Below are positions 10,654 to 28,553 of a DNA stretch of 39,864 nt, one piece after another. The stretch is from positions 1 to 39,864 of the forward strand of contig CAMDBU010000039.1 in assembly GCA_945889495.1 (NCBI GenBank), given 5' to 3'. The DNA comes from Syntrophobacter sp. SbD2. GTDB taxonomy: Bacteria > Desulfobacterota > Binatia > UBA9968. The notes below the pieces were generated by a model that ran no database searches, was not told the origin of the DNA, and saw nothing but the letters and a program-made list of their open reading frames with translations. The position numbers and the translations under genes are program-made. Within the stretch, counting starts at the first letter, position 1; each line of letters begins with the position of its first letter.

Positions 10654-10757
10654 GAATGGGTTGTGAGGATTACGGTGTTGTCTATCCGGATCTGCATCAG
10701 GTTTCGGGGTTGCTGCGCCGAATCGAAATAGTTGATCTGTTCACGACGGGAAAAGTC

Positions 10758-10831
10758 ACCACAGAGAGCACAGAGTACACAGAGAAAAACTAATTCCGAA
10801 ACCTCTGTGATCTCTGTGCCCTCTGTGGTGA
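10758..10831. repeat. long inverted repeat, CACCACAGAG..CTCTGTGGTG
   Basis: CACCACAGAGAGCACAGAG pairs with CTCTGTGCCCTCTGTGGTG to form a near-perfect hairpin with a central spacer. It fills much of the 218-base gap between the dihydrouridine synthase gene and maf. The rest of that gap (10654-10757) shows no gene. Confidence 0.85.
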
Positions 10832-10871
10832 GATTCCTTTTCTTCTCTGGCTGGCAGACGACCGGTTAGGC

Positions 10872-12035: not shown

Positions 12036-12126
12036 GATGATTGCCGGCTAGTTTGACATCGCGCCGCGGCAAAATCCACTGGCGAAGTAATCCGACACAT
12101 GGTGGAACGGGTCGAAAAGATTTTTT

Positions 12127-12199
12127 CACCACAGAGGGCACAGAGAACACAGAGAATTAATTTTCCGAACACTCTGTGATCTCTGTGTGCTCTGTGGTG
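12127..12199. repeat. long inverted repeat, CACCACAGAG..CTCTGTGGTG
   Basis: This is a close copy of 10758-10831: CACCACAGAGGGCACAGAG on the left and CTCTGTGTGCTCTGTGGTG on the right, around an AT-rich centre. The two copies flank the dihydrouridine synthase gene. Confidence 0.85.
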
Positions 12200-12226
12200 A
12201 ACAATCCGCTCCGATCCTGCTCCCAA

Positions 12227-16220: not shown

Positions 16221-16265
16221 AAATTACGAGTCTGGAGTTTTGAATGTTTCAAGATTTCGGAATTA

Positions 16266-16342
16266 TCTCTCGCAAAGACGCAAAGCTCGCAAAGTTCAGA
16301 AATTGTCTTAATTTACTTTGCGGCTTTGCGCCTTTGCGGGAG
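16266..16342. repeat. long imperfect hairpin, CTCGCAAAGACGCAAAG type
   Basis: CTCGCAAAGACGCAAAGCTCGCAAAG pairs with CTTTGCGGCTTTGCGCCTTTGCGGGAG across about 20 bases. This is a second family of intergenic hairpin, with half-copies at 27253-27285, 28636-28692 and 29443-29470. Confidence 0.8.
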
Positions 16343-16366
16343 TAATCTCTTATCCGATAGGGAAAA

Positions 16367-20624: not shown

Positions 20625-20625
<1 letters not shown>
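18412..20625 (-). CDS. recG: ATP-dependent DNA helicase RecG
   Basis: The 737-residue helicase remodels stalled forks and branched DNA. Domains in order: a helix-hairpin-helix-like ALKGVGPKRAEQLEAAGL (37-54), the wedge/OB region (about 85-170), then the helicase core. The core has Walker A GDVGSGKT (325-332), WMAPTEILAEQHF, VVDEQHRFGVAQR (DEQH box) and MSATPIPRSLAMVLYGDM. The helicase C lobe carries LVATTVIEVGIDIANATVM and QLRGRVGRG. The start may be GTG 20625, which overlaps the carB stop (TAGTG), or ATG 20616. The N-terminal lead of about 30 residues is longer than in E. coli RecG. It is the last gene of the pyrimidine transcript, or has its own promoter. Confidence 0.96.
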
Positions 20626-23864
<3,239 letters not shown>

Positions 23865-23869
23865 GGCTG

Positions 23870-25033
23870 CTAGGAACCTCGGTGCTGCGCCATCAGATCG
23901 GTGAAGCGTTTGAATAAATAGTTGGCGTCGTGCGGGCCGGGCGACGACTCGGGATGATACTGCACGGAAAAAATCGGCAGCTCGCGGTGGGCCAGCCCTT
24001 CCACCGTGTTGTCGTTCAAGTTCACATGGGTTAACTGCGCCGCGCCGATCAGCGAATCGGTGTCGACGGCGAAGCCATGATTTTGCGAAGTGATCTCGAC
24101 CTTGCGCGTGGTCAGATCCATCACCGGTTGGTTGCCGCCGTGGTGGCCAAACTTGAGTTTGTAGGTCTTGCCGCCCAGGGCCAAGCCCAAAATCTGATGG
24201 CCGAGACAAATGCCGAAGATCGGCTTTTTACCGATCAATTGCTGGACGTTTTCCTTGGCGTAGGGCACCGCGTCGGGATCGCCCGGACCGTTGGAAAGAA
24301 AAATCCCGTCCGGCTTGAGCGCCAACACAGCGCTCGCCGGCGTCGACGCCGGCACTACGCGCACCTGGCAGCCCGACTCGGCCAAGTTGCGCAGGATGTT
24401 GTACTTGATGCCAAAGTCGTAGGCGACGACGAAATATTTCGGCGCCGTGAAGCTGCCCTTGCGGCTACGCTTGGCGGCGCTCGTGCCGTCGCGCTGTTTG
24501 TAGCCGCCGGTTAACTGCCACATGCCCTGGTTCCAATCGTAGGCCTCGGTGCAAGTGACGTTCTTGACCAAGTCTTGGCCGACCAACCCGGGCGCGGCCT
24601 TGGCTTTGGCCACCGCCTCTTCAGCACTCGCCGCGGTGGTCGTGATCACGCCGTCTTGGGCGCCATGATCGCGCAGATGGTGCACCAGGGCGCGGGTGTC
24701 GATACCCTGGATGCCGACGATGCCGTGGGCGGCCATGTACTCGTGCAGCGGCTGGCTGGCGCGCCAGTTGCTCGGTTGCGCGGTGTAGTCTTTAACGATG
24801 AAGCCGCGCATGAACGGCCGGCGCGCTTCGATATCTTCCGGATTGACACCGACGTTGCCGATCTGCGGATAGGTCATCGCTACCAATTGGCCTTCATATG
24901 ATGGGTCGGTGAGAATCTCCTGATAGCCGGTCATGCTGGTGTTGAACACCACTTCGCCGACCGCGTCGCCGTCGGCGCCGAAGCCTAAACCGTGAAAAAC
25001 CTGGCCGTCCGCTAGTGCTAAAATCGCTTTCAT
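23870..25033 (-). CDS. carA: carbamoyl-phosphate synthase small subunit (glutaminase)
   Basis: The 387-residue subunit releases ammonia from glutamine for CarB. The N-terminal domain has [20 protein letters not shown] and [19 protein letters not shown]. The class I glutaminase triad is Cys276 in [16 protein letters not shown], His360 and Glu362 in [13 protein letters not shown]. Length is normal. It lies between the pyrB fusion, 228 bases upstream, and carB, five bases downstream. The upstream gap contains repeats and no further PyrR-binding motif that I could see. Confidence 0.97.
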
Positions 25034-25134: not shown

Positions 25135-25248
25135 GGTTGTCATCCCGAGCAAAGCGAGGGATCTCGTCTTGGCTGCTACCTTCGAAGTCGAGATTCCTCG
25201 GCGGAGTCTATCCTGAGCGAAGCCGAAGGGCCTCGCAATGACAGATGC
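25135..25248. repeat. composite repeat with CCTGAGCGAAGCCGAAGG segment
   Basis: The block runs from TGTCATCCCGAGCAAAGCGAGGGATCT to CCTCGCAATGACAG, an outer inverted pair (TGTCAT / ATGACA). Inside it lie GTCTATCCTGAGCGAAGCCGAAGG and an ATTCCTCGGCGGAG segment. It resembles the layout at 29308-29417. It fills most of the carA upstream gap of 228 bases. Confidence 0.65.
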
Positions 25249-25261
25249 GCCTAGTCGACCA

Positions 25262-27211
25262 TTACTGACTCGCCGATTTCTCCCGGCTCGCTGCCACGGT
25301 ATTCGTATTCACCGCCGGATTGACGATCGAATAAATCACCACCCGGTCGCTCTCCTGGCGCTCCTCGCCGCGCAGCCGCACGCGCACCCGATCCTTCTCC
25401 GAGCTGGGAATATTTTTCCCGACATAGTTGGGCTTCACCGGCACCTCGCGGTGGCCGCGGTCGACCAACACCGCCAAACGCACCGAACGCGGCCGGCCGG
25501 AGCGAAAGATAATGCTCAGAGCGCTCTTCACCGTCCGTCCGGTATAAATCACATCGTCGACCAACACCACTTCGCGATCCTTCAAGCTCAACGGTCCGAG
25601 ATCGGGATCGGCGGCGCTGCTGCGGCGCAGCTCATCGCCGGAGCCGTATATTTCGATCTCGCCGAGCTCGGGTCGCCGTTTGCGCCGCGCTTCAATAGCC
25701 GCGGCGATGCGCTGGGCCAATTGCGAGCCGACGCTGCGCACGCCGAGGATCAACAAGCGGTCCGGGTCGCGGCAGTCGTTGAGAATCTGCTCGCTCATCG
25801 CTGCCAACGCGCTGTCGATCTCCTCCTCGCCCATGAGCACGCGCTGGCCGCTGGTCTTAGTTGGCTCGTAGCCCAGCTCTTCGGCCTCCTTGATCGAGTC
25901 GAACAGCGCCAGCTCACCCCGGCCCCACCAGTCACGAATCGTCGCGCTCTGCGCGATGTCGAAGGACGAGTAGCGCTTGGCCGCCCGGTTGCCGACGTAA
26001 TCAACCTTGAAACGGTGGTCGCAATAGTCGCAGCCCAGGATCAGCGCGCCGATATGGTCGGCGAAGTAAATTCGGAAGCGCCGCTCGGTGGACCGCGGTT
26101 CTTGGATGGTTATGCAATTGGCGTTGCGGCACTTGGGGCCGATGGGCTCCGGGCTGCGATAGGCGCGGCTGGCCTGCTTGGCGCCATGCCGCTGGGTACG
26201 ATTGGCACGGCTCAAAAATTCCAACAGCGCCATGCGCACCGGCACGCCGTAGGCGGCCTGCTTGAAGTAAATCCCGCGCCGGTCCTTGTCCAGTTCCGGC
26301 GACAATTCATCCACCCGCGGCAGCGGATGCATCACCACGGTATTTTGAAACCGTTTTTCCTGGAGAAACTCCGGGCCGATGGTCGGATAACTGGCGTTGG
26401 CGCCGCCATCCTTCATGCGCTCTTTCTGCTTGCGGGTCATGTAGAAGGCATCGTAGCGCAGGCCGGTGGCCAGGCTGCTCAACTGCGATTGAATGACTTT
26501 GTCGACTTGGGTGTAGAGCGCCAGTTGGTGCGGCTGCTTGGGCGTCAGATACAACGCGTCGGTTTCGGTGACCACCGAATTCAAATCCCCCGACGCCACC
26601 GGTGCGAAGGAATAGTCATATTCTCGCTCCAACCGCTCGATGACATACTGCGGCAGCTCCATGCCGCCCGCCGCCAGGGTTACAACATTGGCGCCGAAAC
26701 GCGCCAGCGCATAAACCAGCGAATGAATCGTCCGGCCATTTTTCAAATCGCCGCAGACCACCACCGTCAAGCCTTTGAGGCCGCCCTTTTCCTGGCGCAG
26801 CGTGTAGAGATCGCACAGCGTCTGGGTCGGGTGCTCATGGCCACCGTCACCGGCATTGATCACCGGCACATCGGCATGCTCGGCCATCGCCTGCACCGCG
26901 CCGTCCCAGTTGTGGCGCACGACCAAGACATCGGCGTAGCTCGACACCACCTTGGCGGTATCGGCGACGGTCTCGCCCTTTGCGGTGGACGACGCCTTCA
27001 TGTCCGAACAAGAAATCACCGAACCGCCAAGCCGCTGCATCGCCGACTCGAATGACAGCCGCGTGCGCGTGCTCGGCTCGTAGAACAGCGTCGCCATGAT
27101 CTGCCCCGCGCCGACCTTGGCCGCGCGCAGCTTCGCGACATCGTCGGCCAAGGTGAAGATCTCCTCGATCTCGTCGTTGGTCAGGTCGGCTATGGAAATC
27201 AGGCTGCGCAT
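25262..27211 (-). CDS. pyrB: aspartate transcarbamoylase fused to a PyrI-like zinc domain and a PyrR-like domain
   Basis: This 649-residue protein has three parts in one uninterrupted frame. Residues 1-335 are a full aspartate transcarbamoylase: STRTR at 47-51, KGE at 78-80, HPTQ at 127-130, and HPLPR at 295-299, all catalytic or substrate-binding. Residues about 359-402 match the zinc-binding end of PyrI: CRNANCITIQEP then CDYC, i.e. Cys361, 366, 394 and 397 in a C-x4-C-x27-C-x2-C layout (E. coli PyrI is C-x4-C-x23-C-x2-C). The nucleotide-binding half of PyrI is absent. After a linker, residues about 455-649 match PyrR: LLILGVRSVGSQLAQRI, the phosphoribosyltransferase signature VVLVDDVIYTGRTVKSAL (548-565) and VLVDRGHREVPVKPNYVGKN. 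The usual PyrR YRDD motif is replaced by YGSGDELRR. Separate pyrR, carA and carB genes flank it. The fusion may be a self-sensing transcarbamoylase; its function beyond the first domain is inference. Confidence 0.92.
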   Translation of the reverse strand: MRSLISIADLTNDEIEEIFTLADDVAKLRAAKVGAGQIMATLFYEPSTRTRLSFESAMQRLGGSVISCSDMKASSTAKGETVADTAKVVSSYADVLVVRHNWDGAVQAMAEHADVPVINAGDGGHEHPTQTLCDLYTLRQEKGGLKGLTVVVCGDLKNGRTIHSLVYALARFGANVVTLAAGGMELPQYVIERLEREYDYSFAPVASGDLNSVVTETDALYLTPKQPHQLALYTQVDKVIQSQLSSLATGLRYDAFYMTRKQKERMKDGGANASYPTIGPEFLQEKRFQNTVVMHPLPRVDELSPELDKDRRGIYFKQAAYGVPVRMALLEFLSRANRTQRHGAKQASRAYRSPEPIGPKCRNANCITIQEPRSTERRFRIYFADHIGALILGCDYCDHRFKVDYVGNRAAKRYSSFDIAQSATIRDWWGRGELALFDSIKEAEELGYEPTKTSGQRVLMGEEEIDSALAAMSEQILNDCRDPDRLLILGVRSVGSQLAQRIAAAIEARRKRRPELGEIEIYGSGDELRRSSAADPDLGPLSLKDREVVLVDDVIYTGRTVKSALSIIFRSGRPRSVRLAVLVDRGHREVPVKPNYVGKNIPSSEKDRVRVRLRGEERQESDRVVIYSIVNPAVNTNTVAASREKSASQ

Positions 27212-27340: not shown

Positions 27341-27901
27341 TTAAATACTCCGATTCTTTTCTTGCCAGTTGGTCAGCACCACTTGATCGACCCCATCTGC
27401 TTCATCGAGCAATACGTTAACCCGCTGGCCGTCGAGGACTTCGATATTTTTGCCGACGATATCGGCACGGATCGGCAGCTCGCGGTCGCCGCGATCGATC
27501 AGCGCCGCGACGAGAATTCGCTTTGGCTGGCCCAAACGCTCCACTGCCTCCATCGCCGCGCGAATCGTCCGGCCGCGGAAAATCACATCGTCGACCAACA
27601 CCACGGTCCGGTCATCCACCGCCACCTGCACCTCGAACGCCCCTACCGCCGGCAGCGACTGCTCCTGCAACTTGTCGTCGCGATAGGGCGTCACGTCGAT
27701 CACGCCCACCGCCGGCGCGGTCTTGGCGATCTCCTCGATCTTGCGCGCCAGCCGACGCGCCAAATGAACACCGCGCGAACGGATGCCGATCAAAGCCAAC
27801 TCGCCCGGCGCGCTCGCCTTCTCGACGATCTCGTGCGCCATCCGGCTGACCATCCGGCCGATGTCGTCCCGTTCGAGTAAAGTTTTTTTCTCTTCAGCCA
27901 T
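27341..27901 (-). CDS. pyrR: PyrR pyrimidine attenuation regulator / uracil phosphoribosyltransferase
   Basis: The 186-residue product is a stand-alone PyrR, an RNA-binding regulator that senses UMP/UTP and often has uracil phosphoribosyltransferase activity. It keeps LALIGIRSRGVHLARRL (35-51), YRDD (73-76), VVLVDDVIFRGRT (100-112) and IDRGDRELPIRADIVGKN (135-152). I chose ATG 27901 because the longer frame's first eight codons are encoded by the terminator hairpin. The start codon directly follows a run of seven T. It is the first gene of the pyrimidine unit, followed by the pyrB fusion, carA and carB, and its own leader carries a candidate PyrR target. Confidence 0.93.
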   Translation of the reverse strand: MAEEKKTLLERDDIGRMVSRMAHEIVEKASAPGELALIGIRSRGVHLARRLARKIEEIAKTAPAVGVIDVTPYRDDKLQEQSLPAVGAFEVQVAVDDRTVVLVDDVIFRGRTIRAAMEAVERLGQPKRILVAALIDRGDRELPIRADIVGKNIEVLDGQRVNVLLDEADGVDQVVLTNWQEKNRSI

Positions 27902-27938
27902 AAAAAAAGACCCGCCCGGCGTCACCGAGTGGGTCTTT
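27902..27938 (-). terminator. intrinsic terminator (attenuator) abutting the pyrR start codon
   Basis: On the minus strand AAAGACCC (27938-27931) pairs with GGGTCTTT (27913-27906), with an inner CGG/CCG pairing. The stem is followed by a T-tract at 27908-27902 that ends at the ATG. Termination here would stop the transcript before any gene. The ribosome site would have to lie in the 3' stem (GGCGGG), so folding could also block translation. Confidence 0.8.
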
Positions 27939-27983
27939 GCGCGTAGCGATTGTGTGAATTAAGTTCCGTCATGATGCCCTTTG

Positions 27984-28001
27984 CCGACCTCACAGGATCG
28001 G
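27984..28001 (-). promoter_or_regulatory. PyrR-binding RNA loop in the pyr leader
   Basis: The transcribed strand reads CCGATCCTGTGAGGTCGG: CCGA and TCGG pair as a stem around TCCTGTGAGG. The known Bacillus PyrR-binding loop consensus is ARUCCNGNGAGGYU. This site matches it except the first and last base. It lies about 15 bases after the predicted transcription start and 46 bases before the terminator stem. I found no clear antiterminator pairing with the terminator's 5' arm. Confidence 0.75.
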
Positions 28002-28018
28002 ATTAAAAGGTATGGATT

Positions 28019-28058: not shown

Positions 28059-28553
28059 CTAAATTCTCAACTCAACTAGTCTTCCACTAATCCTATCACC
28101 GTCGAGGTTGAGTCTGCATACCGAGACCGGCAACTTGAATCTCCTCGGCCCGGCGCTGCCGGGATTCAAAAATATCACCTCATCCCGCTTCAGGATACTC
28201 GGCTTATGGGAATGGCCGCTGATGACGACTCGAATACCAGCATCACGAGGATCGATTTCTAATTCGTTGACGTTATGGATCACGTAGAACTTGGTACCAT
28301 TGATCTGGAGATTGAGTATGTCCGGCAGCATCTTCGCCCACGGATCGCGGTCGTTGTTGCCGCGGATCGCACACACCGGCGCGATCGAACCGAGCGACTC
28401 CAGCACCGCCGGCTTGCCGATATCGCCGCCGTGGATAATCAGCTCGACGCCCTTCAGCGCTGCCAACGCTTCTGGCCTGACCAGGCCATGGGTGTCGGAG
28501 ATCACGCCGATAATGCCCTTCTTGATCTCGATCGGTTTGCGGTGAACGACCAT
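28059..28553 (-). CDS. YfcE/MJ0936-type metallophosphoesterase
   Basis: The 164-residue product is a small calcineurin-like phosphoesterase. Metal and active-site motifs are ISDTHG (18-23), HGGDIG (41-46), RGNND (64-68), and SGHSHKP with NPGSAGPRR in the C-terminal half, the standard order for YfcE-type phosphodiesterases. Family members hydrolyse phosphodiesters such as bis-p-nitrophenyl phosphate in vitro; the natural substrate is generally unknown. The pyr promoter begins 12 bases downstream of its stop. The start codon's ribosome site is weak. Confidence 0.9.
   Translation of the reverse strand: MVVHRKPIEIKKGIIGVISDTHGLVRPEALAALKGVELIIHGGDIGKPAVLESLGSIAPVCAIRGNNDRDPWAKMLPDILNLQINGTKFYVIHNVNELEIDPRDAGIRVVISGHSHKPSILKRDEVIFLNPGSAGPRRFKLPVSVCRLNLDGDRISGRLVELRI

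Follow-up and report, generated by a model that had tools for sequence, protein, structure and literature searches.

The window, by which we mean the whole stretch of 39,864 nucleotides analysed from Syntrophobacter sp. SbD2 (contig CAMDBU010000039.1), contains a gene that joins an aspartate transcarbamoylase (PyrB), a PyrI-type zinc domain, a linker and a PyrR-like domain in one polypeptide, located between a stand-alone pyrR and the carA and carB genes. The features of the locus are as follows:

25262..27211, minus strand: complete fused frame of 649 aa, with PyrB, the PyrI-type zinc domain, the Ada-like linker and the PyrR-like domain in that order
26213..27211, minus strand: aspartate transcarbamoylase catalytic part, residues 1-333, from Pfam and NCBIfam models and an active-site alignment
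26000..26134, minus strand: PyrI_C zinc domain, residues 360-404, from a PF02748 match, with the four cysteines C361, C366, C394 and C397
25847..25999, minus strand: linker, residues 405-455, which a profile comparison likens to a metal-less zinc domain of Ada type
25331..25846, minus strand: PyrR-like domain, residues 456-627, from a PyrR family model, an alignment and a structure model
27341..27925, minus strand: stand-alone pyrR, 193.9 bits with NCBIfam PyrR, basic helix and YRDD kept
27900..28013, minus strand: likely PyrR-binding RNA element (RF00515), ending at the likely pyrR start codon
23870..25033, minus strand: carA, recognised by sequence, downstream in the same operon
20625..24209, minus strand: carB frame, with the true start inside, recognised by sequence, downstream in the same operon

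The initial annotation had proposed a single 649-codon frame at this position, without naming its strand, and its reading of the parts was borne out by our domain search. The N-terminal part is a complete aspartate transcarbamoylase, matching OTCace_N (E=1.9e-50) and OTCace (E=5.1e-19) and scoring 290.8 bits with the equivalog model TIGR00670 (asp_carb_tr), above its cut-off of 236.95. PF02748 (PyrI_C) matched residues 360-404 modestly, with 25.5 bits for a cut-off of 23.4; the same domain scored 29.8 bits when the window's own genome was searched, and scores reach 39.5 bits in relatives of the window's class. The four cysteines show exactly the C-x4-C-x27-C-x2-C spacing that had been described. 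The C-terminal part matched Pribosyltran (E=2.8e-17) and, over residues 456-627, the NCBIfam PyrR model PRK05205.1-5, with 151 bits for a cut-off of 138; with the remaining NCBIfam PyrR models, the fused protein scored under each model's cut-off. As had also been claimed, the nucleotide-binding half of PyrI is missing: PF01948 matched neither the fused protein nor anything in its own genome (0/1, 95.6% complete), in a search that recovered this domain from 7 of 14 control genomes, indicating that the fused protein is not a PyrI.

From six sequences we built a profile (A2) that spans the zinc domain and the linker, and ran it over 148 genomes of the window's class. It matched 68 genomes, 67 of them in families f1, f5 and f77, and had no match in 80/148; the 68th match (G251, family f66) covers the zinc part only, with the contig ending there. 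Of the 25 genomes from the family to which the window belongs, 20 were positive, and one of the five without a match is 93% complete. PyrB, linker and PyrR-like domain occupy a single frame in 65 of the 68 positive genomes, the exceptions being a gene split over two contig ends (G121, loci L045/L046), a gene whose PyrR part contains a stretch of undetermined bases (G191, L112) and G251 (L140), in which the contig breaks off within the zinc domain. Two of the 65 are themselves broken or misassembled: in G268 (L086) the catalytic part is spread over two frames, and in G187 (L099) the frame changes within the PyrR part. Some more of the 65 are cut by contig ends; several fused frames are interior to contigs of hundreds of kilobases. 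We therefore reject a read-through, assembly or frame error, the first two of which the annotation had considered: the parts are not separate in other genomes, and genomes from three families of the class carry the fusion without interruption. Five relatives show 65-77% identity to the whole fused protein. Five relatives with named records are labelled as Deltaproteobacteria (four) or Proteobacteria (one) bacterium, with groundwater given for two of them. The fusion is real and conserved.

In a sample of 395 genomes of the phylum, PyrI_C produced 18 matches, 17 of them above the cut-off. Ten are from the window's class, nine lying in frames of 641-738 residues and one in the split gene of G121. 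Frames of the size of a separate PyrI (169-196 residues) were found in five of the 395 genomes (G026, G102, G447, G464 and G518; L143-L147), and the last match is a sub-threshold one in a broken frame. The other two are PyrB-zinc proteins from other classes of the phylum, G003 (L047, 480 residues) and G035 (L048, 426 residues), which resemble the fused protein in having PyrB followed by PyrI_C, but stop before the PyrR part; G003 carries the linker in addition. From their sequences, PyrB, PyrB-zinc, PyrB-zinc-linker and the full fusion look like successive steps, or intermediate architectures.

We compared the phylogenies of fused and stand-alone PyrR domains in a tree of 138 rows, in which the PyrR of G056 is present twice. 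The fused PyrR-like domains form one clade (100/100, and 100% of 200 bootstrap trees) and stand-alone PyrR a separate group (97/86, 95%), so a recent tandem duplication of the adjoining pyrR is unsupported as the source of the fused domain. Families f1, f77 and f5 are each coherent within both groups (f1 among the fused rows, 86/96), with f77 placed beside f5 in the fused clade and beside f1 in the stand-alone group. This topology, whose root is not fixed, fits one old fusion with mostly vertical inheritance. In 12 chosen pairs of relatives, dN/dS values were 0.07-0.24 for the PyrR part and 0.05-0.19 for PyrB, and 0.02-0.33 (one pair undefined) and 0-0.43 for the zinc part and the linker, values from short stretches and from synonymous distances near 1 being unreliable. 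Judged by these ratios, the fused PyrR-like domain is under purifying selection.

Fourteen positions that, by E. coli numbering, we take to form the active site of PyrB (S52, T53, R54, T55, S80, K84, R105, H134, Q137, R167, R229, Q231, L267 and P268) are kept in 63-65 of 65 fused proteins, the remainder being gaps, and are thus invariant wherever aligned. The best sequence matches of the catalytic part in the PDB were 2rgw and 1ml4, followed by further chains including 1q95. We also observed about 30 extra residues in the catalytic part (window 26453-26542, residues 224-253), directly before DAFYMTRKQ and after a similar DALYLTPKQ, and adjoining the presumed position of the loop that shifts during the E. 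coli transition; this stretch occurs in G003 as well, and in a shorter version in G035.

Each zinc-domain cysteine is present in 64-65 of the 65 fused proteins aligned, and solved PyrI regulatory chains have the same four, spaced x4, x23 and x2 in the printed alignments. N363, which is N in 62/65 fused proteins, is matched in the alignment by residue 111 of the regulatory chain in 1d09, which we take to be that of E. coli; N365, the next Asn in the motif, is less conserved (44/65). From the motif spacing, and assuming the E. coli numbering of R105, the counterpart of c-Glu109 is D103, which is D in 60/65 and E in 4/65 fused proteins. In aspartate transcarbamoylase, r-Asn111 contacts c-Glu109, and the change Asn111Ala abolishes homotropic and heterotropic effects, according to PMC6056424. 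The retention of both N363 and D103 is as expected if the zinc domain still docks on the catalytic chain.

The linker of about 50 residues between the zinc and PyrR domains is conserved in fused proteins, with G407, W428, L434, F437, K441, A443, E444 and E445 each present in 64-65/65. In a profile comparison in local mode with Ada-type zinc domains, chosen by their cysteine motif from related genomes of the class, it gave a probability of 91 and a score of 33.1, against control scores of at best 13.1 among 100 column shuffles and 10.4 with the reversed profile; forced global alignment gave a probability of only 18.6. PF02805 (Ada_Zn_binding) did not reach its cut-off of 23 in the linkers, the best score, 13.9 bits, coming from the G003 piece alone, and cysteines are absent from the window's linker, indicating a metal-less relative of Ada rather than a member of that family. 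We thus describe the linker as resembling an Ada-type zinc domain, probably through a distant relationship only.

The structure predicted for residues 334-649 from eleven sequences had a mean pLDDT of 77.6 and compared with PyrR structures at Z values of 22-24 (top Z 24.2, rmsd 1.6 over 161 residues), the next family, HGPRT, being at about 16. The closer structural alignment is limited to the PyrR part, model residues 120-299, and says little about the zinc domain and the linker. For the full-length protein, predicted from six sequences, the mean pLDDT was 46.6, and this poor model was set aside.

To locate kept and lost residues, 63 complete fused and 65 stand-alone domains were aligned with B. 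subtilis PyrR, whose numbering is used here. Three fused rows with an incomplete PyrR part (L086, L095 and L099) were dropped before the residue counts and the tree, and the stand-alone G056 (L049) is outside the 65; the stand-alone L124, whose two matches lie in one broken frame, entered the counts and is outside the tree. Positions 15, 19, 22 and 27, all basic in B. subtilis PyrR and taken here to be RNA-side contacts, are basic at none (33 rows) or one (30) of the four in the fused domains, but at three (15) or four (50) in the stand-alone ones. In the window's fused domain they are S, A, E and D, and the basic RNA-side helix is thus lost; R15 remains in 18/63 and R19 in 5/63 fused rows, and position 27 is acidic in 58/63 of them versus 0/65 stand-alone rows. 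PyrR has a basic concave RNA surface, as described in PMC7430163. One could envisage that the fused domain still binds pyr mRNA, the enzyme being its own RNA regulator, with the likely RF00515 element lying upstream and with R141 (61/63, versus 52/65 in stand-alone rows) and K152 (58/63 versus 44/65) mostly kept. Given that no fused row has more than one basic residue at the four positions, and given the acidic position 27, we consider this highly unlikely.

The Y/F-R-D-D motif at 72-75, a loop to which we attribute a catalytic role in PyrR, is intact in all 65 stand-alone domains and in none of the 63 fused ones. This loss makes it very improbable that the protein is a bifunctional enzyme, combining transcarbamoylase with uracil phosphoribosyltransferase salvage, despite the fact that the PyrR family models are named uracil phosphoribosyltransferases and that the predicted structure agrees with their fold; moreover, the adjoining stand-alone PyrR would already cover salvage.

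That adjoining gene is a regular companion of the fusion, with an ordinary pyrR directly upstream of the fused gene in 62 of 66 loci counted. In the window, 27925 is its first possible start, the ATG at 27899-27901 being likelier. RF00515 matched in front of it at full length, with 49.6 bits and E=5e-4, without reaching the gathering score of 54. Since the same RNA scan returned an irrelevant plant microRNA family with E=2.6e-4 in a hairpin elsewhere in the window, this E-value alone proves little, and position and relatives weigh more. RF00515 exceeded its gathering score before pyrR in three of 12 loci (L041, L081 and L085) and, in a search with a looser threshold that took in five loci and left out L084, L088, L090 and L091, scored 44.8-53.7 bits in all five (L042, L043, L044, L080 and L082); in f5/f77 loci, 3/5 gave 37-46 bits. 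On these sequence matches, it is plausible that the stand-alone PyrR has an adjacent RNA target. The initial annotation had offered uracil salvage or RNA binding as alternatives to sensing, and both are weakened, by the missing YRDD loop and basic RNA-side helix and also by this ordinary PyrR with its likely RNA target in the same operon.

Downstream of the fused gene, carA was found in 17/20 f1 loci and 1/40 f5 loci, and pyrC in 31/40 f5 loci and 2/6 f77 loci; neither was recognised in three f1, eight f5 and four f77 loci, by short motifs that may miss some. A small gene, of metallophosphoesterase type by its sequence, lies before pyrR at 28059-28553 (minus strand), and also in L041, L042, L043 and L044. 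A candidate dispersed repeat after the fused gene, at 25215-25231, was discarded, having one exact copy in the genome.

Conversely, the phosphate (PRPP) loop residues D105, D106, G111 and T113 are present in 63/63 fused domains, and in 64-65 of the 65 stand-alone ones, with a single gap, in L124. The window's loop has the normal form, Y-T-G-R-T at 109-113. R112 is kept in 15/63 fused rows and replaced by W in 45/63, comprising all of f5 and f77, whose loop reads N-S/T-G-W-T, and the ligand may have shifted there. Within the 140-156 block, which we presume to be the base side of PyrR, with uracil contacts, H140 is found in 60/63 fused versus 1/65 stand-alone rows, Y149 in 63/63 versus 31/65 and P155 in 63/63 versus 4/65; outside it, Y178 is found in 60/63 versus 0/65. 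Because the stand-alone proteins, which are presumably PyrRs all the same, themselves depart from the B. subtilis block, its retention in the fused domains is no proof of a UMP pocket. These stand-alone proteins mostly lack the B. subtilis H140 and P155, yet have the basic helix and YRDD, and may not respond to ligands as textbook PyrR does.

This pattern of kept and lost residues points to a sensor, rather than to a second enzyme or an RNA binder. A purely structural role is likewise compatible with the missing catalytic residues, and the PyrR-like domain might be only an oligomerisation or stability module, pairing trimers or tethering enzymes of the operon and sensing nothing. The loss of the RNA-side residues, and the existence of G003 and G035, which indicate that the PyrR part is dispensable in other classes, would agree with such a module; a scaffold, however, needs none of D105, D106, G111, T113, Y149 and P155, each of which is invariant in the fused domains, and we regard this explanation as unlikely. 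It is distinctly unlikely, in turn, that PRPP or a purine nucleotide, and not UMP/UTP, is the ligand sensed, with an abundance of precursors activating the enzyme. Few parts of the domain are better kept than the phosphate loop, and the frequent change of R112 to W is compatible with a different ligand; against this, H140, R141, Y149, K152 and P155 are retained on the base side, as presumed uracil contacts, and the window's own loop is normal. In PyrR, binding of UMP/UTP and of purine nucleotides is opposed, and purine nucleotides oppose RNA binding, as reported in PMC7430163, which would lend some weight to a purine ligand.

We are therefore inclined, somewhat more than not, to interpret the fused protein as an aspartate transcarbamoylase under feedback control, with an allosteric sensor domain derived from PyrR in place of the nucleotide-binding half of PyrI, the sensor's ligand probably being UMP/UTP. 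The initial suggestion, that nucleotide sensing may have passed to the PyrR-like domain, is supported by the residues kept and lost; we infer all three of the sensor's ligand, its assembly and its sign. The zinc domain would dock on the catalytic trimer as in E. coli, and the PyrR-like domains would pair, bridging two trimers the way PyrI dimers do. UMP/UTP in the PyrR-like pocket would push the enzyme to a less active state, an effect that PRPP or a purine nucleotide might counteract. The adjoining ordinary PyrR would sense the same signal on the mRNA, so that a single operon would employ one sensor fold in two places, on RNA and on the enzyme. Because the zinc domain comes after the nucleotide domain in PyrI and before the sensor here, signal transmission cannot be identical in both. 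The most complete version could go either way: a second, independently evolved allosteric aspartate transcarbamoylase, in which PyrR-derived dimers bridge two trimers and serve as a UMP/UTP sensor that neither binds RNA nor catalyses, attached through the zinc adaptor of PyrI, with the operon's ordinary PyrR reading the same signal for the mRNA.

Aspartate transcarbamoylase starts pyrimidine synthesis and is the textbook allosteric enzyme; to our knowledge, the dedicated nucleotide sensor in known descriptions of the bacterial enzyme is PyrI. In Thermotoga maritima, catalytic and regulatory parts reportedly form a fused polypeptide (attributed to Chen et al., 1998), in which PyrI is presumably whole; the T. 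maritima control genome was matched by both PyrI models. The window's protein likewise has catalytic and regulatory parts in one chain, but only the zinc half of PyrI, plus the PyrR-like domain, and it scored 95.8 bits with PRK13376, the model for the T. maritima-type fusion, for a cut-off of 800. Compared with E. coli aspartate transcarbamoylase and PyrI, as described in PMC4581275, the catalytic chain is of the same broad family, and the PyrI-type zinc domain, its four cysteines and the Asn contacting the catalytic chain are shared; unlike there, we found a single polypeptide without the PyrI nucleotide domain, and with a PyrR-like domain instead, placed after and not before the zinc domain. 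With PyrR, an attenuator and uracil phosphoribosyltransferase, the C-terminal part has in common the fold, the phosphate loop and the 140-156 block, and differs in being fused to a pathway enzyme and in its lost YRDD and RNA-side residues. No description of an aspartate transcarbamoylase-PyrR fusion was found in the open-access literature, most subscription journals lying outside this scope.

The fusion, carried by a group of environmental bacteria that are uncultured, suggests a different way to build a feedback-controlled textbook enzyme. If the PyrI zinc adaptor was kept and the sensor swapped, the adaptor would be a reusable socket, and a transcription-attenuation protein would be convertible into an allosteric domain. 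PyrB-zinc, PyrB-zinc-linker and full-fusion proteins would then represent natural intermediates for how allostery is acquired.

Elsewhere in the window, we observed hairpin-forming stretches at 10751-10836, 12109-12217 and 16261-16347. The plant microRNA family matches all three weakly and cannot be the explanation. Two of the three have a common 38-base repeat around CTCTGTGATCTCTGTG.
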